From an uncultured Selenomonadales bacterium (lineage in GTDB: Bacteria > Bacillota > Negativicutes > Selenomonadales > Selenomonadaceae): DNA of 64,000 nt. The notes under the pieces were generated by a model. That model was not told where the DNA came from. It made no database searches and saw only the letters and a program-made list of their open reading frames with translations. Shown in pieces: positions 1,963 through 64,000 of the stretch. Each line of letters starts with the position of its first letter. Within the stretch, counting starts at the first letter, position 1. The position numbers were made by a program, and so were the translations under genes. The stretch spans positions 62,001 to 126,000 of the forward strand of contig CAMZHX010000004.1 in NCBI GenBank assembly GCA_947307055.1, written 5' to 3'.

Positions 1963-2039
1963 GGGAAAAGGGGGATGGGAGAAGGGAAAAGTAGGGATTA
2001 GGTTTTAAACTTTTCCCATTTTCCATTTCCCTTACCCCT
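1963..2039. repeat. heptamer inverted-repeat element, short form, cheW/cheC gap
   Basis: A purine-rich arm (GGGAAAAGGGGGATGGG, then AGAAGGGAAAAG) is followed by a short core TAGGGATTAGGTTTTAAAC and a pyrimidine arm (TTTTCCCATTTTCCATTTCCC). The arms pair imperfectly, so the che transcript could fold a long hairpin here. The element fills the whole gap between the two genes and reaches the cheW stop codon. The same arms and a nearly identical core recur at 2542-2626. Confidence 0.85.
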
Positions 2040-2522: not shown

Positions 2523-2541
2523 AAAAAGTCCTCCTTAGTAA

Positions 2542-2626
2542 GGGAAATGGGAGAAGGGAGAAGGGAAAAGGGTAGGGATAAGGTTTTAGACTTTTCCCAT
2601 TTCCCTTTTCCCATTTCCCTTTCCCC
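2542..2626. repeat. heptamer inverted-repeat element, short form, cheA/cheW gap
   Basis: The left arm is four clean heptamers (GGGAAAT, GGGAGAA, GGGAGAA, GGGAAAA). The core is TAGGGATAAGGTTTTAGAC. The right arm is the pyrimidine complement in heptamer steps (TTTTCCC, ATTTCCC, TTTTCCC, ATTTCCC, TTTCCCC). It ends exactly against the cheA stop codon. It could form an arm-to-arm hairpin of about 30 pairs with mismatches in the che mRNA. Confidence 0.9.
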
Positions 2627-4747: not shown

Positions 4748-4765
4748 AAAGTATCCTCCTTTTTA

Positions 4766-4800
4766 GGGAAAAGGGAAATGGGAAATGGGAAATGGGAAAA
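4766..4800. repeat. left heptamer arm of the S23-like element
   Basis: Five perfect 7-base units in a row with no extra bases: GGGAAAA, GGGAAAT, GGGAAAT, GGGAAAT, GGGAAAA. It lies between the cheA ribosome site and the stop codon of the S23-like gene. Confidence 0.93.
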
Positions 4801-4804
4801 GTGT

Positions 4805-5179
4805 TTACCAGTCCCTTGTATTTTTTTCCTTGTCCCTAAGTTTTGTAATCATTGAATTAAGCATACGTTCAATCTCGTTGAGCAATGACAATGACGCCTC
4901 AAGGTCTTCTTGCTCCAAGTAATTAAGTCTTACGCAAAGCAAAAGTTGAGTTTCGACTTCTGCCTTTGAGCCGCGTGCCATTGACAAAAATCTCAAATAA
5001 TCTTTGGTAGAAAAACGCGCATTATCTTCCGCAATGTTCGACGGAATGGAAACGACTGCTCGTCTAAGTTGATTTGTTAAACCGTAGAGTTCTTCATTAG
5101 GCAATTTTCTAGTAAGGCGATAAACTTCTGTAGTTAAATCCATTGCCTTTTGCCAGACCATCAATTCTTTATATTGCAC
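4805..5179 (-). CDS. four-helix-bundle protein, S23/IVP-like
   Basis: A 124-residue protein of the four-helix-bundle family first known from open frames inside 23S rRNA intervening sequences and distantly related to Avd of diversity-generating retroelements. Family marks are clear: YKELMVWQKAMDLTTEVYRL at the N-terminus, LRRAVVSIPSNIAEDNARF, STKDYLRFLSMARGSKAEVE, TQLLLCVRLNYL. A longer frame opens inside cheB, but its first part only translates the purine repeat (KGKWEKGNGK), so the GTG at 5179 is chosen; it gives the usual family length. It interrupts the che operon and is bounded by inverted heptamer repeats. The biochemical role of free-standing family members is not known to me; nucleic-acid binding is a common guess. 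Confidence 0.85.
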   Translation of the reverse strand: MQYKELMVWQKAMDLTTEVYRLTRKLPNEELYGLTNQLRRAVVSIPSNIAEDNARFSTKDYLRFLSMARGSKAEVETQLLLCVRLNYLEQEDLEASLSLLNEIERMLNSMITKLRDKEKNTRDW

Positions 5180-5187
5180 AATCTCAA

Positions 5188-5222
5188 TCTCCCTTTTCCC
5201 ATTTCCCTTCTCCCATTTCCCT
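5188..5222. repeat. right heptamer arm of the S23-like element
   Basis: Five pyrimidine 7-base units on the plus strand, complementary in type to the left arm. On the minus strand they read GGGAAAT, GGGAGAA, GGGAAAT, GGGAAAA, GGGAGAT with a one-base offset. The arm abuts the cheB stop codon and supplies the purine-rich leader of the S23-like gene. Confidence 0.9.
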
Positions 5223-6368
5223 TTATCGACGCACCGCGTCGACGATAGCTTCAGCAATTTTATTCAAAGGGCGAATTTCATCGGCAAGCCCCGCGTCGAC
5301 TACCGCCTTAGGCATACCGTAAACTACGCAACTATTTTCATCTTGCGCGATTGAATAACCGCCGGTCGCTTTGATTTTCTTCATGCCCTCGCAGCCGTCC
5401 GAACCCATGCCCGTCATTATCACGCTAACCAAATCTCTGCCGAATTGCGACGCCGAATCGAACATATAATTGACGGTCGGGCGAAGATTCCCAACGCGCG
5501 GCTCTTGGCTCAAAACGATTTTCCTTTCGCCGCCGCTAGCAGGGACAATCCGCAAATGATAATCTCCGGGCGCAATGTACACTTGACCCGGTTTGATAAT
5601 CTCGTCGTGTTCCGCCTCCTTGACTGCGATTTCGCTAATTGAATTCAATCTTTCCGCCAAAGATTTCGTGAAGCCTGCGGGCATATGCTGAACGATAACC
5701 ACGCCGCAAGGAAGATTGCCCGGCAAGCGCGTTACGACTGACTGCAGAGCTTGCGGGCCGCCCGTCGATGTCCCAATAACTACAAGCTTTTTGCCCGTTC
5801 CAGGAATGATTCTTCTGACTGGCGCAGTCGTGCTCGGAACGCGGTTAATCGTCGGCTTTTGCCCCAAGACAAGTCCTGTCCTGCGCCTGACTTCGACGCG
5901 GCGTGTTGTCGGCTCTATGTTGGAAGGTTTCGGGCTGTAGACGAGCGGACTACTTGCGGCGAAATTTTTTCTGGCATGAGCCTTCGCCGCCAATCTGCAC
6001 TTCGACAAAATTTCGTCCTTTATCGTGTCGATTTTCGAGATAGCTCCGCCCGCCTTGCTCACGAAGTCGACCGCGCCCAGCGCAAGTGCTCGAATAGTTT
6101 CATTCGTGCCCTTTTGCGTCGCGGAACTTATCATGATGACCGGCAGCGGGCATTGCTCCATAATAATTCCCAAAGCCGTTAGCCCGTCCATTATCGGCAT
6201 CACAACATCGAGCGTCAAAATATCCGGCTGCAACTTCTTGACCTTCTCGATTGTGTCTTGACCATTGACCGCCGTGCCGACGACCTCGAAATCGCTTTGA
6301 CTTTTGAACAAATCAGAGAGGACTTTTCGCATAAAAGCCGAGTCATCAGCAATTAAAACACGAATCAC
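5223..6368 (-). CDS. cheB: CheB, chemoreceptor methylesterase/deamidase
   Basis: Response regulator that removes methyl groups from chemoreceptors when phosphorylated by CheA. The receiver domain is at 1-120, with the acidic pair D8/D9, phospho-acceptor Asp54 in DILTLDVVMP and Lys in DFVSKAGG. A linker rich in basic residues follows to about residue 185. The C-terminal esterase has the catalytic Ser in IGTSTGGPQALQ, His in VIVQHMPAGFT and Asp in VIMTGMGSDGCEGM. The start is GTG at 6368, eight bases after a GGAGGCG site. It is the first gene of the operon, 147 bases downstream of accC in transcription order. Confidence 0.97.
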   Translation of the reverse strand: MIRVLIADDSAFMRKVLSDLFKSQSDFEVVGTAVNGQDTIEKVKKLQPDILTLDVVMPIMDGLTALGIIMEQCPLPVIMISSATQKGTNETIRALALGAVDFVSKAGGAISKIDTIKDEILSKCRLAAKAHARKNFAASSPLVYSPKPSNIEPTTRRVEVRRRTGLVLGQKPTINRVPSTTAPVRRIIPGTGKKLVVIGTSTGGPQALQSVVTRLPGNLPCGVVIVQHMPAGFTKSLAERLNSISEIAVKEAEHDEIIKPGQVYIAPGDYHLRIVPASGGERKIVLSQEPRVGNLRPTVNYMFDSASQFGRDLVSVIMTGMGSDGCEGMKKIKATGGYSIAQDENSCVVYGMPKAVVDAGLADEIRPLNKIAEAIVDAVRR

Positions 6369-8298: not shown

Positions 8299-11200
8299 TC
8301 ATTTGGTTAGCCAGGCTGATTGCTCGTGATTAGCAGAAAATTTCGAGCCGTCAGCAAGTTGATACGTAATGTCAGCGGCGGAATTAATTTGTAGCGAGCC
8401 GCCGTCTTTGAAGTTAAGCGTCACCGCGTCGGCCGTGATATTTGAACTTGCGATTTGCTCAAGCGTCACTTGCGCCAGATTTACAACATCGCCATTGTTC
8501 GCGCCTTGAATGGTGTCGTTGCCATTACCGTTGGTATAGAAGAAAGTATTTTTGCCCGTGCCGCCTTGCATGAAGTCATTGCCGCCGTTGCCGCCCCATA
8601 GGCTCGAATCACTATTGCCCGCAAGAATCGTATTGTCAAGGTCGTTGCCCGCCAAAGTATTTTTGCCGTCAGAATTAGTAGCGTCCAAAGTTCTGATGTC
8701 ACCGCTGAAAATTTTGCCGTGCGAGCCGTCGAGCCAAATTTCCGCGCCCTCGCCAACTGTCAAAGTTGCATTTTGCGAAGTCGCCGCGAAATAATTTGCC
8801 TCGGCGTTATAAGTAAGATTTTTATCGACCAGAGCAACGAAATTATTTATCCGGAAGTTTTTGCCTTGCGCGTCTTCAAGCGTCAACGAAGCCGAGCCGC
8901 TAATTTCCATACGCACGCCGCCCGCGCTATTGACGTTAACCGCCGTAATGGTCTCGTTGCCGACAGAAATTGTGTCTCCGTCAAAGTTGAAATTATTAAT
9001 CACGTCGCGCCCGCTGTCCTTGCTGAAAATAAATTCCGTCGTGCCGTCGGAACTCGTCAAAGTCTCGTTTTGCGAAGAGCTAATCAGCGTATTCAGCCCG
9101 CCGCCTAACGTCACGCAATTTATCCCGTAGAAATTCTCGCTCAAGTCGACCGCCAAGGAATCGTTATAGCCGGTGAAGTCCACGCCAGATTTTTTGCCGA
9201 CGTAAATATCAGCTGTATCATTGCCCGCCGCGATTATTAAGCCTTCTTGAGCAATCGCGGTTTTAATTTCCTTGCCGTTTATAAGAGTCAAAATTCTTGC
9301 CGCGTCATCGTCCGACGAAATATTTTGCAACAAGGCGCGAGCCGAACCACTCTTTACGCTGATATTTTCGCCGTCAAAGCTGAAATCGTAATTCGCCGCG
9401 TCAACGGAAATTTTATCGCCGTCAAAGTTCGCGTTGAAGTTTTCGACAGTATTTTTGCCGTTGAGCAAAATTGTCACGCCGTCAGCATTTGCGCCGCGCT
9501 CCTCAAGATAAATGTAATTGTTCCCTGCACCCGCGTCAACTTTACTGCCCTCGAACGCAAAAATGGAATCGCTACCACTTCCGCCCGTAAGCGTCGAATC
9601 TTTATCAGCGTAAAGAACTAAATCCGCCGTTTCCTTGCTGAGATTAAGTGCTGTATCTGTAAATGCCCTGCCAACTTTTTGCAATTCGCCGGTCGTGTCG
9701 AAGAAATTCATAACATTATTGCCATCGCCGTCAATGACAAGTGCCGAGCCGATTGTGAGTCTGCCTTTATTGAAGACAATGTCGCCTTCGTTAATCGCAT
9801 CAAAAATATTTGCGTAATCGGTATGGAAGCCGCTACCGGTCGAGGCATTGTAGCCCGAAATGTTCATCTTGCCGTCCGTCGCGAAAACTTCAGTCTTGCC
9901 GCCCTTAAACGTCACGGAAACATTTTCGCCCTCGCTAACGATAGTATCGTTGCCCTTGCTCGCGGTTATGTTGACTTTCGCGCTAGTATCTTCGACGACA
10001 ACGACTTCGCCGCCCTTGAGCGTAACATTTTCCTTGCCAGATATGACCCTAGCATTTTCCGTGCTTAAAATTTCTTCAACTCTTGCGTTAATTATTTTCG
10101 CCGAATCGCTCGTCCCGATAAAAGTATCGTTGGCCTTTGCAGTTAAAATTGTGCCGTTGACGAAATATTCGCCGCTCTCATCGGTCACAAATTTAATTTT
10201 GCCGTCGGTGTTGGAAATGTTCGCGCCATTCATCAGCCCAGTTATTTTCGACTCGCCGTCAGTAATCGTCACCGTTATTTCGTCCGAATTGTCGACCGAA
10301 ACTTTTGAGCCGTTAATCGTTATGCCGTCCAAACTGTCGCAGGTGAACGAGCCGTTCTGGAGATTTTCTATCGAGGTAATTTTTTCGCCGTCGCCGGTCA
10401 CGTTGAAATTATCGTCGCTGGTGATTGTGATTCCGTAAAGTTCAATTCCGCCGAGCTCGCCGCTTATCGTCCCAACGAAATTATCCGCCGCATAAACGCC
10501 GGTTGAATTCGTTTGCAAAGTTCCTGCGAAGTCGCCTGACGTGCTGAAAGTTTTGCCGCCAATAGTTATATCGCCCTCGCCGGTCAGCGCGATTTCAGCA
10601 TCTCCGCCGCTCTCGACCACCTCAACCGAATTTTTCGCAAGATTTATAGTTATTAACGTTTCATCGTTGAGGGAAATTTTCGTGTCGTTGGTGCCCGTCA
10701 CGCAGAATTTCTGCCCGTTGAAAATAATTTCGTTGTTGAAGTCGCCTTCTATCAGAGAACTATCACTCACGATTTCGCAAACGTTGCCGCTCGCGTCAAG
10801 CTTGAAAATAGTTTTATCGGCGGAAGTCGTGAAAGTTTTGCCGTTAATCGTGAACGTATCGGGCGCGTTCGTCTCTATGTAAACGTTTTCGTCGTCGTCC
10901 TTCACGACAAAATTAGTGCTGTCGGTCACTTTCACGAATACGCCGTTGACCGTGAGTCCTTCCGAAAAGTTGCCGAACACTTCTTCTAAATTATCTGTCG
11001 TCGAAAGAGTTATCGTGGCGAAATCTTCTGTGACGTTCTCCGCCGAAACTACATCATCACTTTGTGCCGTCTCAATGCCGGAAATATTGCCTGCCTCGTC
11101 AAGCTCGAAAGTTTTGCCCGCGCTCATCTCGAACTTATTGCCGCTGAAAATAATTGTGCCTTCGGCGGAAGTCGTCAATTTCTCCGCGCCGCCCAATTCG

Positions 11201-14200
11201 TACACCCGAATATTTTTCCGATAAATTTTGTCGTCCGCTATAGCCAAATCGCCCGCGACGTTTGAAATTTCCGTAATGTTTTCGCCGTCTGAGGTGACTT
11301 TGATTGAACTTGCGCCGGTCAATCGGACTGCCTTGCCGTTTACGCTGACTTCGTTTGTAAAATCGCCCTCGACCGAACCTTCAAGCCCGTTAATTTCAAT
11401 AACGTTGCCATGAGAACCCGTCACGAAAGTTACGCCGTCGGGGTCGTCCGAAATCTCGTAACGCCTACCGCGAATTATAAACGCGCCATTCTCCACCGTT
11501 ACAATCGAAATATTTGACAAGCCATTGCCACCTATGAACGCCGAAGCCTTGACGCCTTCAATACTCGAAATTTTCTTGTCGACGACCGTCACTCCCTTAT
11601 AACAATCATTTTGAATTTGGACGTATTTATCACGGACAGCAAAGCCGCTTATGCTAAAGTAAAAATCCTCTATCGTGTACTCAAGGTTGAGCAGGGCGCA
11701 TCTTGTCGGCGAATTGGTTTCAAACTTCTTGCCGGCAATTTCGACTGCGCCTTCAATCAAGAATTGCCGATTTTGATATTTGGATTTGTCATCGCTACTA
11801 ACAATCGCGCCGTCCGTCAATGAAATTAAGCTCGTGTTGTAGCGATTTATTTGCGCGGTGCCAGTGCCGCTAAGCGTCAAGCCGTCATACTGGAAAGTTC
11901 CCGTCGATAAATCGAACTCAACGCCGCGAGTAATCGTCTGCACTTTAGCATTTGCTGTCGCGTGAAAGGTTATCCCGTTGATAGTGTGATTGCCCGCCTT
12001 ATCAAAGTTATAAACATTTCCTGCCGCCTCTGAATCATCGTCGGCATATTCTTCGCCAAGCGGCGCAACTTTTATTTCGCCGTCGGAATTGCCGTAAACA
12101 ACGTAAGTTTCGTCGCCGGTCGTAGTTATTTTTTCTCCGCAAATGTTGAACTCGCCCGCGCCAGAAGTCTCTACTTCAAAGCGCAAATCGCCCGCGTCAA
12201 TTTCTTCCGTTGAAGTCGTAATTGTTGCGCCGTCGGTTATGCCCGTGATTTTATCTATGCCGCTCGTGCCGGAAGTCTCAACCGTCCATGCGTCCACGCC
12301 TTCAATCTCGACGTGCTCAAATATCAGCGCATTGAACCCGACGCCGATTCCCTTTTCATTATCAAATTCAATATAAGCCGTGCCGTCATCAGTCAGCACA
12401 ACTTTTTTATTCACGTCGCCGAAGTACGCCGAACTACCTTTTCCAGTCAGCTCGAAAGTGTTGCCGCTCGTGTTTTGAACCAATGCGCCGTCAGGCAAGA
12501 GAATCGAGAAAAAGATTGCGTTCGTGTTATCAATCGTCGCCAGTGCAGTGCCCGTACCAGTAATTTTTGCGTCGTTTATCGTGACGGGATTTTCACTAAG
12601 TGGAACTTGTAGACTTTCCTTATTGGCGGTGATTTCAAGTTCGATATCGGAAGAAATTTCTTTGCCGTCGATTATGAAGCTACCTGCCGCAAGATTTAAT
12701 TTAATATCGTCGTGAGAGGTGAAATTGAGGTTTGCGCCGCTCGGGATTGTAATTTTATCGTTAGCCAAGTCGAAAACAATTTCGCCGCTATCGCCGCTGA
12801 CTTTCACGCCGTCAAAATAAATTTCGGTTTCCATGTCGCTTAGCGGGATTCTAATTTCGTTCGCGTCGGCTGTGAATGTCAAATCTGCTGTAGTCTCGAA
12901 AGTTCTGCCGTTGACAATGTAACTGCCCGCCTCGCACTTGAAAGTTTTGGTCTCGTCGCCGGTCGTGAGGGTCGCCGCGTCGTTTATCGAAATCGTTTTA
13001 CCGTCGAGCGAATAAATTGCCGGCTTGTTGAGCGCGTAATTTATCTTCACGCCGTCGAAATCAATTTTCGTTCCGCTGAATGTTATTTGCTCGTCAAGGG
13101 TTATGCGACCGATTTTTTCCGCGTCAAGCTCTTTGTCCTGAATCTTAAATGTGTTCCCGCTCGCCTCGATGACGTTGATATTATCCGCGACACTCGAAAT
13201 TATAAATTCTTTGCCGTTGACTTCGTAGTTAGCGTAATCTTCAGCGGCAGAAATATCGAACGTCAACTTTGTAAAGTCATTGGAGAGAGTTTTAACGCAC
13301 GCGTTGTTTTGAATCGTGTAGTTGTTATCGGCGGAATTGTAATTGATTGACATTGGCGCGGAGTTGCCAGAATAATTTTCCTTCGCGACTTGCAAAGCAA
13401 CGAATTGCGCGCCGTAACCTTCAAAGCTCAAGCCGTCGCTTTCTACGGTGATTGTGCCCGCGCCGCTCGTCGAATTCACTGGCAAATTGTTAATTGAAAA
13501 AGTCCCCGACTTAATGTTGATTTTAGCACCTTCGGGAGCCGTGATATTCGCCGAAGAATTATTGTCGAAAGTAATTTCCTTCGCGCCGTTGGTCGAGATT
13601 ACACTGCCCGCGAGCAACTCAACTTGAATCTCGCCGTAATTTAAAGTCGTGTCTTGACTGAACGTGATTTTGTCGCCGTAACTTTCGCTGGTCAACGCCA
13701 CGTTATTTTGTTTGTATTCAAGGACGTTGCCGCTGCTCAAAATCGCCGTGCCAAAAATCCCATTCGCTTTGATAGCAGAAACTTCAGCATTCGTTACCCT
13801 AACCGCGCTATCCTCCAACGTGCTGTTGACATTGAGCACGGAATATTTCTGATTGAAGCTGTAAGCATTGGCGACAGCGTAAGCAGTAACACCGGCGGTC
13901 GCGTAAGCTACTTTGGAATTGGCAACCGTATAACTTACATAGGAGCTGGTGTCGTCGTCCTCGTCGTCCTCGTCGTCATCGTTGCTGATATTCAAAGCGG
14001 ATAAAGTCGCGGCTCCTTTGAGCGTAACTTTGCCATTGCCAACCGAGACAATAACATCATTGCCGCTCTTTGTCGTGGAGAACTTGTCAGTGATTTGCAA
14101 AGTTGAATCCTCGTTGAAGCCCTCGACCAGGTCGTTGCCGTCGCCCGCGCCGTATTCAATTAAAGCGGTGCTGTCGGCGTCAAGCTTAATGGAATCATTA

Positions 14201-17200
14201 CCCGCGCCGCCGTTAATTGTAACGTCGGTGCTATTCGACACGCTGATAAGGTCGTTGCCCGCGCCGCCTTCTATCGTCGAGAAGAAGCCGTTCGCGTTGC
14301 TTAGCGTATCATTGCCCGCGCCGCCTTCGAGCAAGTTTTGGTTGCCTTCGTTGTAAATTGAATCGTTGCCCGCGCCCGCCGTAATTGTAACTTCCTGCGC
14401 GTAATTGTTTGCAATAGTATCATCGCCCGCGCCACCGTCGATTGAAGTATTATTGGCGTCGCCGTTGTTCGTGATTGAATCGTTGCCGCCCAGCGCGGTT
14501 ATCGTGACTTCCTCGCCGGAATTGCTTATGGTGTCGTTGCCTTCCGTGCCGCTTATCGAATTGCCACTTAAGGTGTTGTTGATATTCAAAGCAGATTTTA
14601 TTTCCTTGCCTTGAATGTTGACTTTGGAGAGAGACGCCGCGCCTTGCAGAGTTATATTACCGTCGCCAACAATAACAATTATATCGTTGCCGCTTTTCTG
14701 CGTCGAGTAGGAACCGGAGCCGCCGTCAATTTGCAACGTAGAGGTAGAGTCAAAACCAGTGACTAAATCGTTGCCGTCTCCCGTGTTGTAGAATACAACT
14801 TCTCCGTTCCCTTTGTTCGTTTTGTCAAGATAAATATAATCGTCGCCCTTGCCGCCAATGAATCTGGCATAGAACGCGTAATCAGAAAGAGTGTCATCAC
14901 CGTCGCCGCCGTTTAGCGTAACACTGTTAGAAATATAGTTGCGAATGGAATCATTGCCCGCGCCGCCACTTATTGAGACTCGGATACCACGTGTCTTGCC
15001 ATAATTGCTGGTGTTGAAGACAGTATCATCACCGTCGCCGCTGTAAATTGTGACGTAATTGGCTTCAAAACTTTTAATGTAATCATTGCCTGTGCCCGCG
15101 TCGATTGAAGAATTCGCGCCGGTGTTGGTAATGTTATCGTTGTCGCCGTAAGCAATTACTGTGACGTTTACGCCGCTATTTTTAATTTTGTCTTTGTGAT
15201 TGCCGCCAGTGACTAAAGAATTACTTTCTGAATTGCTGATATTTGAGGCGGGTTTGTCTGGCGTGCCGATAATATTTATAGTTGATAAGGTCGCCGCGCC
15301 CGCTAATGTAATTTTCTCGTCGTCGACATTGACAATAGCATTGTTGCCGCTCGTGTACAAGCTGTAGAGACCGCCCGCAATGCTCAAAGTTGAATCAGCT
15401 TTAAAGCCGGTGATTGTGTCGTTGCCGTCGCCCAAACTGTACTCAATCAAAGCCGCGTTAGCTTTATTGAGATAAATTTTATCGTCGCCGGTGCCCGCGT
15501 TGACTGTGACTTTATTGCTGCTCGTTACGGTGATTAGGTCATTGCTCGCGCCGCCGCTGATTGAGACATTATTTTTTTCGTTGTTAATGGAGTCGTGACC
15601 GTTGCCGGCGTCTATCGTGACGGAATTGTTGTTATTGTGAATGGAATCGTTGCCGTCTAGCGCGTGGATTATGACATTTGAACCAGAGTTGCGGATTGAA
15701 TCATCGCCTTCAGTGCCAGTGACCGTAAAAATATTGACCCCATCATCGCTGATAGTGCCGCTCTCTATATTGCGGAAATTTCTGCCTTCAATTTGCTCAT
15801 CGCCAAGAATGTTGACGGTTGATAAAGTTGCCGCGCCCCCCAGCGTGATTTTATCCTTGTCGACAACGATAATAACATCGTCGTCTTTAATCTCCTTGTA
15901 ATAACTGCCGGTGCCGTCGCCGATTTGCAAAGTGGAAGTCTCGTTAAAGCCGGTGACGAAGTCGTTGCCGTCGCCCGCGCTATACTCAATTAAAGCTTGC
16001 TCACTAGAGGTAATGTAAATGTCGTCGTTGCCCTTGCCGGCGTTGATTGTATTTCTGTAGCCGGATTGACTTTTGATAATGTCGATGTCGTCGCCCGTGC
16101 TAATTGACGAATAGTTAGCGTTGTTATTTTCAATGGAATCGCTATCTGCGCCCGCGTCAATCGTGACGTAACGACCATAATTTGAAATGGTATCGTTGCC
16201 CGCGAACGTATTTATTGTGACGTTGGAACCTCTATTTGCTACGCGGTCTTCCAAGCGGTCGCCGTTTATCAAAGTTTGGTTCTGCGTGTTCTCTACATTT
16301 AAAGTCGTTACGCCGTTTACGTGGATAGTTGATAAAGTCGCCGCGCCCGCCAGCGTGATTTTGTCGCCGCTCTCGTCCGTGATGATAATATCGTTGCCGC
16401 TGTCCGTTCTGGAGTAAGTGTTATTGCCGTTGCCGATTTGCAAAGTCGAAGTCGAATTGAACCCCTCGATAAAGTCGTTGCCGTCGCCCATTGCATGTTG
16501 GATAAAAGCGTTATTAGTATTCATATCCAATTTAATGGTGTCGGAACCTTTGCCGGCGGTGATTGTGTTCAGGTAGGCGGCTTGAAGGCTGATTATGTCG
16601 TTACCTTCGCCGGTTGAAATGGAAGTTGAAGTGCCCTTGTTGGAAATGGTATTGTTACCCGCGCCGCCACTAATCGTAACGTTCGCGCCACCGTTCGCAA
16701 TGTAATCGTTGCCGTTCTCGCCCGCGATTGTTACGCCATTGGAACTGGCATCGTTCTCGATAGTGTCATTGCCTTCGCCGCCCGCTATCGTGACTTTGCT
16801 GGCGTGATTGTATATTGAATCACTACCCGCGCCGCCAGAGATTATCACGCTGTCCGCGTTGTTAGCAATGGTGTCGTTGCCATTTTGCCCAGCTATCGTA
16901 ACATTCTTGCCGCTGTTAGTAATTTTTTCGTTGCCGTCTTCGCCATTGATTATGACTTGCGCGCCTTTGTTGTTAATTGAATCGTTGCCCCTCAGAGCCT
17001 GTATCGTGACTTGCGAGCCGGTGTTGGCAATGGTGTCGTTGGCGTTGGTGCCATATATGGTCGTGTTGTTTTTGGTGTTGTTGAAATTCCAAGAAGTTTC
17101 AACGATATTGACAGTGGAGAGAGTCGCCGCGCCTTGCAGAGTGATTTTGCCGTTGCCGACTGTGACAATAATATCATTGCCGCTCTTTGTCGTAGTCGCA

Positions 17201-20200
17201 TGAACGCCGCCCGAAATGCTCAGCATAGAATTGTCTTTAAAGCCGCTGTTTATGATAATGTCGTTGCCGTCGCCAGCGTTGTAAGTAAACAGGACATTAT
17301 CGCCGTGATTCCAAATAGAATCGTTGCCGGAGCCGCCGTCTAGTTTGGAATTTGCGCCCACGTTTTGAATGTTATCGTTGCCCGCGCCGCCAAGAACCGT
17401 TGAGCTTTCGCCGGCATTTAATAATAAATCATTCCCTGCGCCGCCGTTTAATGAAACTTGTTTGCCGCCTGTAGGCGCGCCGCTTACTTCATTCCGGAGC
17501 GTATCATTTTCCGCGCCGCCGTCTATCGTCACGTTGTCGCCGGTATTGGTAATGCTATCGTTGCCGGCGAGCGCGTTTATCTTAACTTTTGCGCCGCTGT
17601 TTATGATAGTGTCGTTGTTGTTGCTTGCTGTTACAGTTTTGTTGCTGGCGTCGTTTTTGATAACGATATTGGTTTTGGAGAGTTTCGCCGCGTCTATAAG
17701 GAGGACTTTGCCGTTGCCGACCGTAACAATTATATCGTTGCCGCTTCTTTGGGTCACATAACCATTGGAGCCGACGTCAATTTGTAGCGTGGAATTTTCT
17801 TTAAAGCCCAAAATGGTGTCGTTGCCGTCGCCCGCGTTGTATTTAAATAAAACGTCGTAGCCGGAGTTGTAAATGTAATCGTTGCCCGCGCCGCCGTTGA
17901 TTTCTTCTTCAGTACCACTACCACTGTAATAATTCAGAATAGTATCGTTGCCCGCGCCGCCATTGATTGACGTATTCCAGCCGTAGTTTTTAATTGAATC
18001 GTTACCCTCGCCGCCGGCAATCGTGACTCCGTAGTAGTCGTTGTAAATGTAATCGTTGCCCGCGCCGCCGCCTATCTTGACGTTGGAGCCGTTGTTGGAA
18101 ATTGAATCGTTGCCTGCGCCGCCTTCTATCGTGACGTAGTAGTTGCTGTTGTAAATGGAATCGTTGCCCGCGCCCGCGTTGATTGAAACTTCATTGCCGG
18201 TGTTGTAAATAGAATCGTTGCCCGCGCCCGCGTCGATTGTGACGTAGGCGTTTCTGTTGTAAATAGAATCCTCGCCCGCGCCGCCGTCTATCGTGACGAA
18301 CGAGCCGGGGTTGTAAATGGAATCGTTGCCGTCTCCGCCTTCTATCTTGGTGTACTTGCTGACGTTTTCAATGTAATCATTGCCCGCGCCGCCTTTTATC
18401 GTGCTGTTGTAGGCGTTGGGGGCAGTGCTTCTGATGGTATCATTGCCGTCTCCGCCGTCTACCTTGACGCTGGCGCCTCCTTCATTGCGAATGGAATCGT
18501 TGCCGCTATTTGCAAGTATTGTGGTTTTTTGACCGGTGTTGTAAATGTAATTGGTAGAATCACTGCCTACAATAAAGATATTTTTTTGACTGTTGTTATA
18601 ATTTCCATCAACGTATACTCCTTGCTTGCCGGCGATATTGACTTTGGAGAGCCTAGCGGCACCTTGCAGAGTGATTCTACTGCCGTCGGTCGTGAAAACA
18701 ATTACATCGTTGCCGCTTTTTGTCGAAACATAATCTCCGCCGGAAATGCTCAGCGTGGAATTGTCTTTAAAGCCGCTGTTTATGATAATGTCGTTGCCGT
18801 CGCCCGTCTTGTAATTGAACAGGACGTTATTGCCGCTGTTGACAATGGTATCGTTGCCGCCGAGCGCGTTTATCGTGACCTTGTTGCCAGAATTCATTAT
18901 AGCTTCGTTGGCGTTGGTTGTGGTTATAGTTTTGTTGTTGCTGTTGTTTTTGACAACGATATTGAGTTTGGATAAAGACGCCGCGCCTTGAAGAGTTATC
19001 TTGCTATTGTCGACAGAGACGATAATATCGTTGCCGCTTTTTTGGGTCGCATAAGAACCGGAGCCGACGCCAATTTGTAGCGTGGAATTTTCTTTAAAGC
19101 CGGTGATTATGTCGTTGCCGTCTCCGGCGTTGTAGACGATTAAATTATTCTTTACGCCACTGGCAAGTGAGATTGTATCATTACCCGTGCCGCCGATTAT
19201 GATATCGTTTTCGCCGCTGTAGTTGTAAATGGAATCATCGCCCGCGCCGCCGTTTATCGAGACATTCCAAGAGCCGCCGTTATCAATTACATCATTACCT
19301 GAGCCGCCGTCTACCGTGACGTTGTCGCCTTGGTTTTGAATGTAATCATTGCCGTCGCCGCCGTCAAGTGTGGTGTTGCTGGAGCCTTTGACAAAAATTG
19401 GTTCATTATAGCCGTTGTAAATGGTATCATCACCCGCGCCGCCGACTAGTGAAATGTTTTTAAATTCATTATCGTAGTCGCTGCTGTGAATTACATCGTT
19501 GCCCACGCCGCCCGAAATCGTGATGAAGGAGCCGTTGGATTCAAGGGTATCGTTGCCGTCGCCGCCTTCTACTAAAACGTTGTTACCTATATTGTTGTTG
19601 GCAGTTCCCATGTTGTAAACGGAATCGTCCCCCGCGCCGCAGTTTATCGTGACGTTGGAGCCTCTGTTCTGAATAGAATCATTGCCCGCGCCGCCGTCTA
19701 TCATGACGTTGGAACCGCTGTTGTAAATGTAATTGTTAGAATCACTGCCTACAACAACTATATTGCTTTGACTGTTGGTATAATTTCCATTAACGTATAT
19801 TCTGCACTGGCCGCGAATATTGACTTTGGAGAGAGACGCCGCACCTTGCAGGGTGATTTTCTCTTTGCCGACCATGACAATAATATCGTTGCCACTTTTT
19901 TGCGTGGAGTAAGTGTCAGAGCCGTTGCCAATTTGCAGCGTGGAATCTTCTTTAAAACCTGCGATAATGTCGTTGCCGTCGCCCGCCGTGTAAAGGATTA
20001 AATTATCCCTTCCGCTGGAAAGTGAGATTGTATCATTACCCTTGCCGCCTTTAATCGTGCCAGTATTACTGTAACTGTAAATGTAATCGTTGCCGTCGCC
20101 CGCGTCGATTGAAATTGTGTCGCCGTTGTTTTCAATGGTGTCGTTGCCGTTGCCGCCAAAAATTGTCGTGACATCGCCGTCGTTGTGGTTGTAAATGTAA

Positions 20201-23700: not shown

Positions 23701-26700
23701 TCAACTAAGCTCAACGGCACAGGCAACGTCGAACTTAACGCACTTTCCGAAAATTATATAACGTCGGTAAATGGCGGCATAACTATGGGTAACGGCAATG
23801 GGAAATCATTCGGCGCGGCGGTTAATATCCTTAATAATGACGGCACAACCGCAGTTATGATTGCTGATAACGGCGTCAACTCGTCACTAAGCGATAATAT
23901 TAAAAATCTCCAATCCGAAATCGAAAACGCGACCGACCAAGATATTTTAGTCGAAAAGAAAAGCGAACTTAAAGCCCTCAAAATCGCTAAAGCCGCGCAG
24001 GACATTTTAGGCGAAGATTATACAAAGGAATTGGGCACCGCCTCAACCGCCGATAAAGGCAAAATTACTGCCGATACTTTTACCACTAAAGCCGATAACA
24101 CCGGCACTATTAACGCAATCGCTATCGAAGGCACAGAAAATTCCGAATCGCACGGTTTCGCCGACCAATTCAACGACAAAGTTTATAAGGGCGAAGTCCA
24201 GCTAGGTTACGTCGATAACGCTTTCAAATGGCCTGCTACTAAACTTAGCAAAATGCTCGGCAATAAAATCAACGACAAACTTAAATCCGGTCAAAATAAC
24301 CCTCAACAAGCCGCCAATCAAGCCGGAAATGCCGCAGGTAACGAAAACGGCGGCGCAGGCGAAAATGTCGGCGTCAATGAAGAGCAAGTCCAAAGTCAAT
24401 TAAACGTCGCGGGCGCAGGGAGTGCCGCAATCAATATCAAATCCGGCGAGACCGGCTCCCTTATTTCCAATACCAAAATCACTGCTAATAATGTAGACGT
24501 TTCCGCAAATGATGATGCTTTCAATGGCTCGTGGGCGGGCGCAGGGGCTTTTAATTTCTTCGGCAACTCCCAAGCCGCTAAAAATACTAACGTTGCTATC
24601 GGCGGCTCCGTCGCTTACTCCGATAACTCAAAAAATGTCGACGCTATCATTAAAAATTCAACTATCAATAACGCTACGTCCATTAAAAATTCAGCCACTC
24701 GCGACGATTCAGACGTTGCCGCTGGTATGGGCTTAGCCGTCTCAACTAATTCAGGCAATCAAGGTACTAATGTTGACGTTGCGATTTCCGCGTCTATAAA
24801 TTTCATTGAGGGTGATACCCACGCGCTTTTACTTAATAACAACGTCAAGGGCGGCACTATCGAGAATAAAGCAAACATTGATTCTTTACAAGTCGCGGGC
24901 GGGCTCGATATTGCAGGCAGTAGTTCGGGCGGCAAAGGCTTTAATATCGGTGGCTCGGCGGCGGCTAGCAAAATCACGAACGATTTGCAAAGCGGCATAA
25001 AGGGCGGCTCCTATGAAAATCTCGGCAAAGTCGACATTACCGCAGATAAAAAATCTAATCAAATTGACGTTGCAGTTGCCGGCGGCATCACGGCTGGTTC
25101 AGGCACAAAAGGTTTTTCATTCGGCGGCGGCGTCGCTGTCTCCGATATAAATAATAACTCGCGCGCCTTCCTCAATAACACAACTAAATTTAGTTCAAGC
25201 GGTGTCGTCAAGGTCGACGCGCTCGACAGCAAAAATAGCAATTCTCGCAACGCTTATCTGTCTAGCCGCTCCATAAATACTGACCCAACTTCCTATTTAA
25301 ATTCATCTGATAAAGGCAAAATCGACGGCACGAATGGCGGCGGAAATATCGTAAACGTTGCTCTCGGCGGCGGCGCGTCCACTTCCGACGCGGCGGCGGG
25401 CGGTCTGGGCATTTCCTACGCGGGCATTTCTAACCTTATGAACGTCGATATTAAAAATAATCAGGCTATCACCGCGCAAAACCTTAACGCCAATTCAACT
25501 AATAAATCAAATCTCGTAAACGTGACGTTAGGGCTTGCTGGTTCAAATAAATCTTTCAGCGCGGCTGGGGCTTTAGGCGTCTCCGATGTCGTCGGCGACG
25601 GTAACATAAATATTTCCAAATCCAATGTCACTGCCGATAGCTTTTTGAGCAATGCGCAATCAAATGCCCATATTGTCAACGTAGCTGGTCAAGCCGCTCT
25701 ATCAAAGAAATTATCCGTCGGGCTAACCTTCGCTTATAACGCTATGAATAACACGACGGGAATAAATGTTACTGGCGGCACTTGGAATGTTAAAGACTTC
25801 GGCGCGACTTCAACCAATAATAATTACGCTTTGGCACTCGGTGCGGGCGTCGGTTTCTCTAAAGATTCTGCCGTCCTCAATGGCGCAATCGGGCTGAATC
25901 TCGGCAATAATTCTACTAAATCTATTATCGACGGCTCGACCATTAGCGGCGTCAATACTTTGAATGTCACCGCAACCGATAACACGTCGAAAACGACTAT
26001 TGCCGGCGATATTAACATCACTAAGGGTGGCGCAGTCGCGGCGGGCGGCGCAGTCGCTTATGCAGACATCGGCACTTCCGACAATAAGGAAGTCATCAAC
26101 GCTAAAATCACTAACGCCACTATCACGACTAAAAATAATTCAAGCATAAACGTTGAGGCACTCGACAACGCCACTATGAATACTGTTGCCGTTGGCGTAG
26201 GCGGTTCCGCAGGCGATTGGACTTTCATAACTTTTCAAGGCGCGGCGGCGGTCTCCGAACTCAATAAGGATAATATCGCTCAAATTTCTAATTCAACTAT
26301 AACCGGCGACACGGCTAATATCAAAATCAAAGCCACTAGCGGCGGTAACTCTTCCGACGGCTTAAAAATCGGTGATAAAAAAATCAATGTAAATAACAAA
26401 GTCAATACTGCGGCGGCTGTCCTCGACGCGAATTTCGGTGACGAATCACTCTTCGACGGCGCACTTGCTGTCAGCGTCAATAATCTCAATCAGAGCACCC
26501 AAGCCAATTTCAAAGGGACAAGGGAAAAGGGAAATGGGAAAAGTCAGGAAATTATAAGTCGTGCGGGCAATGTCGATATGTATTCCAACTCCGAAGCCGA
26601 TATTTTGGGCGTAGCACTCGGCGGCGCAGGCGGTAAATCTAAAGTCGGCGCGGCTGGTTCCGTCTCCTATAACTACATAAATAATTCTGCCCAAACACTC

Positions 26701-59552: not shown

Positions 59553-59555
59553 AAA

Positions 59556-59624
59556 GGGAGAAGGGAAAAGGGAGAAGGGAGAAGGGGTTTGAACTTTTCT
59601 CATTTCCCATTTCCCTTTTCCCTT
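59556..59624. repeat. heptamer inverted-repeat element, short form, cheV/glmM gap
   Basis: The left arm has four heptamers GGGAGAA, GGGAAAA, GGGAGAA, GGGAGAA. The core is GGGGTTTGAAC. The right arm runs TTTTCTC, ATTTCCC, ATTTCCC, TTTTCCC. It begins four bases after the cheV stop codon and ends just before the glmM ribosome site AGGAGG. It is the same element family as in the che operon, with the shortest core. Confidence 0.88.
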
Positions 59625-61741: not shown

Positions 61742-64000
61742 ATTTTTCCCTTTGCACAGCAACGCCGTCCGATTGATTTTGGCGGCAGAAATATCCGTTG
61801 GGAAGTCGAATCGCTCGCGCAAAATTTTTAAAACTTCGCTCGGCTTGAGGCTCCCCTCCGGCGTTATCAGCACCGCAAATTTTATCAGCAACTCGTCGCC
61901 CGTCAACGAAATTTCGACCGGATCGACGAGATATTTTTTTAGTTCGAGTTCGCGAGATTTTTTGGGCGTGATTCGCGTGAAATTTATTTGGGGCGTCGCG
62001 TTGAAGTTTTTAATTGACAACTGCGCGGCGTCGAAAAATTTTTTATCGAACGGCAAACGAACTTCATAGCGCGACAGGTCAACCAGTGACATCACCGGCT
62101 TTGACTTGCCGCGTAATTTTTTCAGCCGCAAAATTTCTGCGCCGCTCGGTAGTTGCGCATTCAATTTTTTAGCGACTTCAAAGGCCTCGACAGGTCTTGT
62201 CAACTCGAAGTCAACGTATTCGCAATCGCTGGTCACTCCGACTGCCAACGCCGTCGCGAACGAAACTTTCAAGTGCGGATTGAAACCCTCGCTCCAAGCC
62301 GCCGGCAATTTCGACCGAATCAACGCCCGCATAAAAACGTTCATGTAGTCGAGGTGGCTAAGCACGGCGATTTCCGCGCCCTTTCTGATTTGAGCGCGGT
62401 ATTTGGTAGGGGAAAGGGAAATGGGAGAAGGGAGAAGGGGATTGGAAGGGGCGTCGGATTTGTTATCCATTACGCATTGCGCATTACGCATTACGCATTG
62501 CAGTTTCATGCAGACGCCGCAACCTGTGCAACTCGTGCGCCGACAATCGGGCGTAGTCTCGCCGACTTGCGACTTTTCCCACTCGGCAAGCAAATAACTT
62601 TTATCGACGCCCGGCGACGTATGCTCCCAAGGCAACGGCTCCCAAAAATCGCGCTCGCGCCCGCTATAATAATTTTTATCGACGCCGCAAGCCTCAAAAG
62701 CATTTTCCCACGCCTCCGGCTTAAATAAATCGCTCCAGCCGTCGAACTTCGCGCCATTTCTCCACGCCGCCTCGATGACTTTAGCAAGTCGCCTGTCGCC
62801 GCGTGCCAAAACCCCTTCCAACACAGACAATTTCGCGTTATGCCAGTTGTAAGTTATCGCCTTGTCGCGAATCAAATCCTTCAGCAGATTTTGCCGCCGC
62901 TCGAATTCCTCTTCCGAAATTTGCCCGAACCATTGAAACGGCGTCCAGGGCTTCGGCACGAAACATGCAACGCTTATCGTGACTTTGACGCCGCGTTTTA
63001 ACGCCGCAACTTTTTTCGCTAAGTCGGCTATGCCCGCGATGTCGTCGTCAGTCTCGCTCGGCAAGCCCATCATAAAATACAACTTGACATTGCGCCAACC
63101 TTTTGCAAATGCCGCCGCGCACGCGTCAAGCAAATTTTCTTCTGTGACGTTTTTATTTATCACGTCGCGCAGGCGTTGCGTACCGGCTTCGGGCGCGAAC
63201 GTCAAACCGCTCTTGCGCACCGTCTGAACTTTTTCGGCAAGCTCAATCGAAAAGCTATCAATCCTCAAGCTCGGCAGGGAAAAGCTAACCTTCTCGTTGC
63301 GGAAATCGTCTTTCAAATCGTCGATAAGTCTGTTAAGGCAAGAATAATCCGCACTGCTCAACGACGTCAAAGAAATTTCGTCCCAGCCGCTCGAATCAAT
63401 CAGCCGCCTTGCTTGCGCCCGTAAAGTTTCCTCGTTGCGCTCGCGAACGGGACGATAAGTCATACCCGCCTGACAAAATCGGCAGCCACGACTGCAACCT
63501 CTGAAAAGCTCAAGCATCGCTCTATCGTGAACGATTTCCATAAACGGCACGACCGGTTTTTCAACTGACGGCGTTGCGTCAAAATCTTTCACGACGCGCT
63601 TTAAAATTTTGGGCGGCGCATTCTCCAAAGTCCTCAAGCTCAAAAATTTTTCGCCGGAGTAAATCGGCTCGTAAAAGCTCGGCACGTAAATCCCTTTGAC
63701 GCTCAAAAGATTTTTCAGAAAACCGCACCGCCCGCCAATTTTGCCCGAACTCTTCCACGCAATAAAATTTTCTACGACTTCGCCGAAAACTTCTTCCGCC
63801 TCGCCCACGATAAAGAAATCAAAAAAATCCGCGACCGGCTCGACGTTATACACGCAAGGCCCGCCGCCAATTATGAACGGCTCATCATCTGCGCGGTCGC
63901 TCGCGTACAAAGAAATTTTCGCCAAGTCCAGCATGTTTAGGACATTTGTATAAATCATCTCGTATTGCAGGGAGAATCCGAAAAAATCGAAGTCGCGAAC
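61724..64000 (-). CDS. radical SAM/DUF2344 fusion protein (5' end beyond window)
   Basis: C-terminal ~758 codons of a large radical SAM protein; the frame stays open to the right edge (VRDFDFFGFSLQYE precedes the first internal Met). Parts: the end of an N-terminal cobalamin-binding-like domain (DDEPFIIGGGPCVYNVEP, FFDFFIVGEAEEVF); the radical SAM domain with its three-Cys motif in LELFRGCSRGCRFCQAG; a linker with SCTGCGVC; and a C-terminal DUF2344 domain (YRAQIRKGAEIAVLSHLDYM to the end). Such fusions are common in Firmicutes near rng/ribosomal genes and their substrate is unknown to me. Between the two halves lies an insertion made of two heptamer repeats, still in frame. Confidence 0.9.
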   Translation of the reverse strand, partial: VRDFDFFGFSLQYEMIYTNVLNMLDLAKISLYASDRADDEPFIIGGGPCVYNVEPVADFFDFFIVGEAEEVFGEVVENFIAWKSSGKIGGRCGFLKNLLSVKGIYVPSFYEPIYSGEKFLSLRTLENAPPKILKRVVKDFDATPSVEKPVVPFMEIVHDRAMLELFRGCSRGCRFCQAGMTYRPVRERNEETLRAQARRLIDSSGWDEISLTSLSSADYSCLNRLIDDLKDDFRNEKVSFSLPSLRIDSFSIELAEKVQTVRKSGLTFAPEAGTQRLRDVINKNVTEENLLDACAAAFAKGWRNVKLYFMMGLPSETDDDIAGIADLAKKVAALKRGVKVTISVACFVPKPWTPFQWFGQISEEEFERRQNLLKDLIRDKAITYNWHNAKLSVLEGVLARGDRRLAKVIEAAWRNGAKFDGWSDLFKPEAWENAFEACGVDKNYYSGRERDFWEPLPWEHTSPGVDKSYLLAEWEKSQVGETTPDCRRTSCTGCGVCMKLQCVMRNAQCVMDNKSDAPSNPLLPSPISLSPTKYRAQIRKGAEIAVLSHLDYMNVFMRALIRSKLPAAWSEGFNPHLKVSFATALAVGVTSDCEYVDFELTRPVEAFEVAKKLNAQLPSGAEILRLKKLRGKSKPVMSLVDLSRYEVRLPFDKKFFDAAQLSIKNFNATPQINFTRITPKKSRELELKKYLVDPVEISLTGDELLIKFAVLITPEGSLKPSEVLKILRERFDFPTDISAAKINRTALLCKGKNLLDVN
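62409..62440. repeat. single purine heptamer arm inside the radical SAM fusion gene
   Basis: GGGGAAA, GGGAAAT, GGGAGAA, GGGAGAA, then GGGG. It is the same family as the che-operon arms. On the coding (minus) strand it is translated as NPLLPSPISLSP in the linker between the two domains. Confidence 0.88.
62468..62502. repeat. second heptamer family, CATTACG/CATTGCG, inside the same gene
   Basis: Five 7-base units in a row: CATTACG, CATTGCG, CATTACG, CATTACG, CATTGCA. It lies 28 bases from the purine arm and is translated on the minus strand as LQCVMRNAQCVMD. No other copy was seen in the window. Confidence 0.88.

Follow-up and report, generated by a model that had tools for sequence, protein, structure and literature searches.

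In REPIN/RAYT systems one gene lies between inverted repeats and has many short palindromic relatives between genes. Tandem heptamer repeats have been described in several groups of bacteria: STRR in cyanobacteria (an STRR insertion is found in cyanobacterial RNase P RNA), TAACTGA in Beggiatoaceae and GGGAATC in Xanthomonas. For example, the available part of PMC4692102 reports 70 and 75 inverted pairs of heptamer repeats in two Xanthomonas genomes. The main texts of PMC4679880, PMC4692102 and PMC4853749 contain none of the terms S23, intervening, four-helix and helix bundle. Intervening sequences (IVS), as far as the available part of PMC4990558 goes, are linked to 23S rRNA genes: the Coxiella IVS combines tandem heptamers with a terminal stem of 28 bp, and its RNA is excised by RNase III. 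The heptamers of this IVS are the only published link between S23 proteins and dispersed heptamers that our search retrieved (most subscription papers, and preprints, were outside the search, and a prior description is possible).

The locus reported here lies in the window (the whole 64-kb stretch of DNA that was analysed), which belongs to a genome (G000) of 2.46 Mb that is 88% complete and has a single S23 gene. The first-pass annotation of the window proposed an S23-like gene between inverted arrays of five heptamers on each side, and such arms are indeed found: they are 94% complementary over 32 nt, with 391 nt between them (Table 1). The open reading frame between the arms (4805–5257, minus strand) matches PF05635 at 8.5e-40 with the whole family covered, and matches TIGR02436 as well. 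Its start codon was chosen by comparison with the ortholog in genome G021; by our reading of the sequence, a GGGAG within the arm is just upstream of this start. The S23 gene belongs to a minus-strand chemotaxis operon, with the order cheB–S23–cheA. Folded as RNA, the whole element has a z-score of −5.5 and beats all 100 shuffles. It is not inside a 23S rRNA gene, there are no Rfam matches in the window, and no transposase is encoded between the arms, where the enclosed gene is S23. A scan of viral contigs with the S23 protein of the window found no relative.

Table 1. Positions of the S23 element, the short hairpins and the other heptamer arrays in the window
Feature	Position	Strand	Details
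Left arm	4765..4801	+	∼5 heptamers GGGAAA(T/A)
S23 / four-helix-bundle gene (PF05635)	4805..5179	-	likely start GTG 5179; open frame up to 5257
Right arm, inverted	5190..5224	-	∼5 heptamers; abuts cheB stop codon (TAA 5225-5223 on -)
Short hairpin element after cheW	1968..2033		core 1991-2007; RNA folding z −3.1
Short hairpin element in the cheW–cheA gap	2540..2621		core 2572-2588; RNA folding z −4.9
Short hairpin element directly before a Shine-Dalgarno-like site	59554..59624		different core; RNA folding z −5.0
Lone array of window-arm heptamer, no partner arm	26512..26541	+	inside a called open frame; z 0.4, no fold
Lone array of window-arm heptamer	62407..62439	+	beside the CATTACG array
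Second-heptamer array, CATTACG/CATTGCG	62468..62499	+	unit repeated elsewhere in G000

The element resembles several described systems, but differs from each. It shares with 23S rRNA IVS a PF05635 protein, inverted arms that form a stem and the tandem heptamers of these arms, but it sits in an operon gap and has many gene-less relatives of the same unit. As in REPIN/RAYT systems, a gene is flanked by inverted repeats and many inverted palindromic copies are dispersed in the genome; however, no Y1 transposase was found in G000 (88% complete), and the arms are tandem short units that vary between species. Insertion sequences with MITEs also have non-coding short forms of a common sequence, but here the gene between the arms is S23 and not a transposase. 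The cyanobacterial, Beggiatoaceae and Xanthomonas repeats are likewise tandem heptamers and mainly intergenic, but were described without a linked gene. Avd of diversity-generating retroelements is a homologous four-helix bundle; the window S23 protein, however, scores 32 against an Avd cut-off of 80 bits, G000 (88% complete) has no reverse transcriptase (RT), and the RT-linked relatives in our sample are armless. Because the element lacks a defining feature of IVS, of REPIN/RAYT, of retroelements and of insertion sequences, we regard the class as new, and our best reading is an undescribed class of mobile hairpin element, of which rRNA IVS appear to be the known branch. The element, earlier called a possible new family, is not entirely new, as the IVS of 23S rRNA that encode S23 carry arms of this kind and a protein of this family.

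We collected 111 PF05635 loci: 28 from the genus, two from the class, three from named genomes elsewhere (Clostridiales, Pirellulales and Acidobacteria), nine from plasmids and 69 from the window's phylum (these 69 come from part of the phylum places listed, mostly above the family cut-off). Three loci were without a usable flank, so that 108 were tested. A locus was counted as armed when the inverted match of its two 200-nt flanks exceeded the 99th percentile of a control, for which flanks 500–1300 nt away on the same loci were used (406 comparisons). Matching inverted arms are found at 80 of the 108 loci, versus five of the 406 control comparisons; 28 loci do not pass. The best arm period is 7 in 69 of the armed loci, 8 in six, 11 in three, and 4 or 5 in two. 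Some sampled loci are near-copies of each other (L191/L200, L215/L216 and L203/L207). The arm units differ widely between loci, both arms of one locus agree, and the 5′ arm read inward has more G than C in 83 out of 92 loci. Armless S23 genes elsewhere in G000, which would have spoken against the first-pass idea, are not found, as this genome has just the one gene, and most loci of the sample are armed. Some PF05635 clades are armless, among them those beside an RT-like frame.

Armed PF05635 loci are found in the window's phylum, Planctomycetes, Acidobacteria, Cyanobacteriota, Gemmatimonadota and Alphaproteobacteria. On plasmids, 20 out of 21 loci (19 cyanobacterial, one from Gemmatimonadota and one from Alphaproteobacteria; 21 of 31 plasmid records were read) are above the arm threshold, and 19 of these are periodic; the 12 loci beyond the first nine contribute 11 above the threshold, one of which is not periodic. 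The arms of the IVS copy with S23 on an Azospirillum lipoferum plasmid are tandem heptamers. Some elements lie in gaps of cas operons of types I-D and III-B, others between nrd genes.

Arms are absent from the five lowest-scoring phylum loci (L227–L231, 33–70 bits) and from L058, and are present at L057, a partial PF05635 match of 54 bits. A frame with an RT-like Y-M-D-D motif (RYMDD) adjoins four of the armless loci (L058, L229, L230 and L231), as judged by a motif test only; a loose Y-M-D-D motif is also found at the armless L185 and at five of 85 armed loci, none of them RT-like by eye. One armless S23 clade of eight rows (L175, L176, L204, L209, L210, L211, L214 and L224) has no RT motif nearby.

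Arm units change while the gene stays in place. Six groups of S23 orthologs have matching flanks (65–88% identical where alignable; the genes are 70–82% identical), and in these the arm unit varies by species: for example, GGGAAAT in one and AAGGGAC in another, or AGTGAAT, TAGTTAG and AGGGAAG, and even 7 versus 8 nt. Both arms agree within each locus despite the change between species, and the change of unit at fixed S23 loci is plain to read. Four of the six ortholog groups are clades in the S23 tree (92–95), one is weak (76) and one is not a clade. Both within-locus arm scores are higher than both between-locus scores in 17 out of 18 pairs, but this contrast is overstated, as arms were picked by their within-locus fit. 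The earlier idea of a new mobile family with shared arms needs correcting here: orthologous genes that remained in position carry quite different units, so the arms are not terminal repeats of fixed sequence.

Three S23 proteins with 11-nt arms, from three families, form one clade (SH-aLRT 96), and their elements match pairwise at 70–78% over 403–514 nt, arms included. Arms of 8 nt are found in nine rows of the tree, five of which group together with weak support. The tree, based on few columns, requires six changes of period. Solved relatives of S23 are 2gsc, which is the Xanthomonas protein XCC0516, and 2rld. The 11-nt arm units of L190, L199 and L202 are AACNATNGTTA, and G078 has a second 11-nt array ∼8 kb away (L234:8786).

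Short relatives with the same arms were listed by the first-pass annotation at 1963, 2542 and 59556, and at each of these places we find a hairpin of the window-arm heptamer with a loop of 16–31 nt that beats all 200 shuffles (Table 1); the CATTACG array folds on itself too (z −3.6 for 62400–62500). Period-7 arrays are frequent in G000: there are 52 in 464 kb, versus 0–4 at each of the other lags (4 to 12), and none once the sequence had been shuffled. The arm pattern has 618 matches in G000 versus 263 for its reversal (with up to two mismatches), period-7 arms are found in 18 out of 32 hairpins of the G000 sequence sampled, and 42 out of 64 arrays are outside called open reading frames, although just 7.3% of the sequence is non-coding (by the same rough calls). 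The 17-nt core GTAGGGATAAGGTTTTA occurs 30 times in G000 versus once for a reversed control (with up to two mismatches), and its nine copies in the sampled G000 sequence (with up to three mismatches; 20 shuffled patterns gave 0–5) are all between heptamer arms. Because this core is dispersed between heptamer arms, these short forms are copies of a common source and not separate products of slippage. A full element with non-coding short forms, as first proposed, is borne out by this core and, in G012, by an S23 copy with an internal deletion.

Arrays away from S23 loci tend to resemble the S23 arms of their own genome. Using the arms of 19 genomes and 121 arrays in 15 genomes, arrays outside S23 loci fit their own S23 arms over exchanged ones with a score of 4.2, versus a null of 0.63 (sd 0.49; permutation p 2e-4). 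The own-arm score is clearly higher in seven genomes (G000, G022, G015, G058, G106, G162 and G325), not clear in another seven (G021, G034, G078, G119, G121, G157 and G239) and weak in G081. G063 has 21 period-7 arrays in 100 kb; those of the AATTAGG/AATGAGG type, which make up most of them, resemble its S23 arms AATTAGGAATGAGG.

The density of arrays differs among genomes of the genus. Besides G000 and G063, three other genomes with S23 are array-rich (16 arrays in the 80 kb sampled of G022, 17 in 80 kb of G015 and seven in 100 kb of G016). Genomes in which no S23 was found have 0 arrays in 60 kb (G003), 80 kb (G019), 80 kb (G029) and 40 kb (G010), and one in 77 kb (G017). Broken S23 genes are found in G036 (broken only; 0 arrays in 55 kb) and G024 (one broken and one unbroken; 0 in 40 kb), and five genomes have S23 and few arrays: one array in 80 kb of G034, 80 kb of G021 and 60 kb of G023, and 0 in 60 kb of G028 and 40 kb of G006. 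Further out, eight of 13 phylum genomes with an armed S23 have no period-7 array above the threshold in the 40–60 kb sampled of each. Hence S23 is present in all the array-rich genomes sampled, but its presence is not enough for a genome to become rich in arrays, and the spread of short forms is not general among S23 genomes.

Neither a transposase nor an RT was noticed in the first-pass annotation, and PF01797 (Y1 transposase) and PF00078 (RT) both have 0 matches in G000 (88% complete). PF01797 has 0 matches in G015, G016, G022 and G063 as well, and PF00078 has 0 in G015, G016 and G063 and one in G022; among S23, RT and Y1, S23 alone is common to the array-rich genomes. Two readings were rejected: a retroelement, as RT is absent from G000 and is scattered in the genus (12 out of 41 genomes) without tracking S23, and a RAYT/IS200 system, as Y1_Tnp is found in six out of 41 genus genomes, none of them array-rich.

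We read 27 cheB–cheA gaps. The gap holds an S23 element in G000 and G021, the internally deleted S23 copy in G012, and is empty (33–42 nt) in ten genomes (G024, whose CheA is 96% identical, G036, G063, G015, G016, G017, G022, G027, G031 and G033); the remaining 14 are filled with different sequence, in several cases a short hairpin built on a different unit. Variation of the same kind is seen in the cheA–cheW gap. Filled and empty che sites, which the earlier reader had asked about, are thus both present among relatives, and species differ, contrary to the concern that all related strains might have the same elements at the same sites. Empty and filled gaps differ too much for a target-site duplication to be read. 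The elements of G159/G074 (family f33) and G357 (family f50) are 86–87% identical over 384 nt, arm to arm, and their flanks are unrelated. From such sequence comparisons the element is probably mobile; its movement would be slow, as many S23 loci of the genus look vertically inherited. The identical S23 pairs in G119 and G178, considered as a case of transposition, are copies inside rRNA.

Structured RNA genes also host S23 elements. Among 20 of the sampled S23 loci on which Rfam was run, seven have the element inside 23S rRNA (L161, L181, L191, L198, L206, L212 and L215) and two inside class A RNase P RNA (L203 and L205), and all these nine copies form one S23 clade (support 98). The RNase P insert is at the tip of a helix, presumably P12, and its S23 gene is oriented in sense; the RNase P RNA genes (L203:1229-2003 and L205:1311-2083) are about doubled in length by the element.

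We consider it rather probable that the window holds a mobile hairpin element belonging to a class that is widespread, with short forms made by gene loss and copying, and with S23 promoting copying or insertion. The element consists of S23 between two mutually inverted arrays, whose unit has 7, 8 or 11 nt and, read inward, is rich in G and poor in C. If the gene is lost by internal deletion (as in G012), the arms and a short core would be left, and in some genomes these short forms would have spread by copying, giving one gene with many non-coding relatives, as for RAYT/REPINs. The complementarity of the arms could be kept by homogenisation at the DNA level (slippage along an array, and one arm correcting the other), which would allow one unit to give way to another without the element leaving its site. 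The S23 protein, a four-helix bundle like Avd, most likely recognises the arms, with a preference for one unit length, and helps to copy or insert them; we infer its role as mobiliser, the copying mode and the DNA-level correction, and its recognition of arm units is putative. Insertions would survive between operon genes and at hairpin tips of structured RNAs (23S rRNA, giving the IVS, and RNase P RNA as a second host). A bolder version, which we hold tentatively and doubt somewhat as a whole, is that S23 reads and propagates 7-, 8- or 11-nt units (set by clade), rewrites both arms and seeds gene-less hairpins; this would be mobile DNA without a known transposase or RT, and the cyanobacterial, Beggiatoaceae and Xanthomonas heptamers and the rRNA IVS would be products of one system. 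These elements connect the orphan genes labelled 'four helix bundle', the question of how 23S rRNA IVS originated, and the dispersed heptamer repeats, for which reports from several groups of bacteria give no mechanism. If S23 drives them, they are a mobile system without a known catalytic partner, and the match of arm units offers a direct biochemical test.

S23 may instead be a passenger that persists in the loops of hairpins, which arise and spread by host processes (slippage, palindrome correction or an unknown mobiliser in trans). There are S23-positive genomes with few or no arrays, units change without movement, and heptamers are over-represented in bacteria generally (according to the available parts of PMC4692102 and PMC4679880), all as expected for a passenger. 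But arms accompany PF05635 across several phyla while its RT-linked relatives in our sample are armless, 11-nt arms follow one protein clade, and other arrays of a genome match its own S23 arms. S23 is also under purifying selection (dN/dS is 0.04–0.27 in 14 pairs, with dS often near saturation), so that we think a passenger unlikely. The same tie between 11-nt arms and an S23 clade argues against an enzyme of the host or a phage (e.g. a DDE transposase or a tyrosine recombinase) that moves the element in trans, with S23 only protecting or regulating it. Five of the 21 plasmid S23 genes adjoin an annotated integrase or transposase, and our search for a mobiliser covered the RT and Y1 families only, in incomplete genomes; no such gene, however, is beside the window element, nor beside any of the remaining 16 plasmid loci (of which two are unannotated), a weak point as most other loci are unannotated. 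We give this explanation very little credence.

A role at the RNA level, in which S23 binds or processes hairpins of transcripts (as in IVS cut by RNase III) and tunes operons, with spread being incidental, would account for the strong RNA hairpins, for positions between operon genes before Shine-Dalgarno sites, for the insertions in 23S rRNA and at a hairpin tip of RNase P RNA, with S23 in sense there, and for the excision of the Coxiella IVS (PMC4990558, available part). Arm mismatches on the S23-sense strand, however, are 88 wobble G-U versus 89 A-C in 92 loci; with no excess of G-U overall, selection on RNA pairing is not visible, and this fits upkeep of the arms at the DNA level. The subset in RNA genes leans the other way (23 G-U versus 13 A-C), but two cyanobacterial copies are antisense to both neighbours, and we judge the RNA-level role to be quite improbable.

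A few other observations were made around S23 genes and in the window. Three S23 elements (L155, L156 and L300), all from cyanobacterial plasmids, lie in CRISPR-cas operon gaps. A stretch of ∼140 nt beside S23 (L043:1284-1423, L053:1871-2010 and L055:1931-2074) is common to different genomes at 86% and has no Rfam match at the gathering threshold. Four consecutive S23 matches are found within 5 kb in another genome (G366:C150:4002-8790), the last with an internal stop. Finally, a frame of 4081 residues in the window (8299–20544) is rich in GNDxI-type repeats and contains a 54-nt tandem array at 17992–18393.
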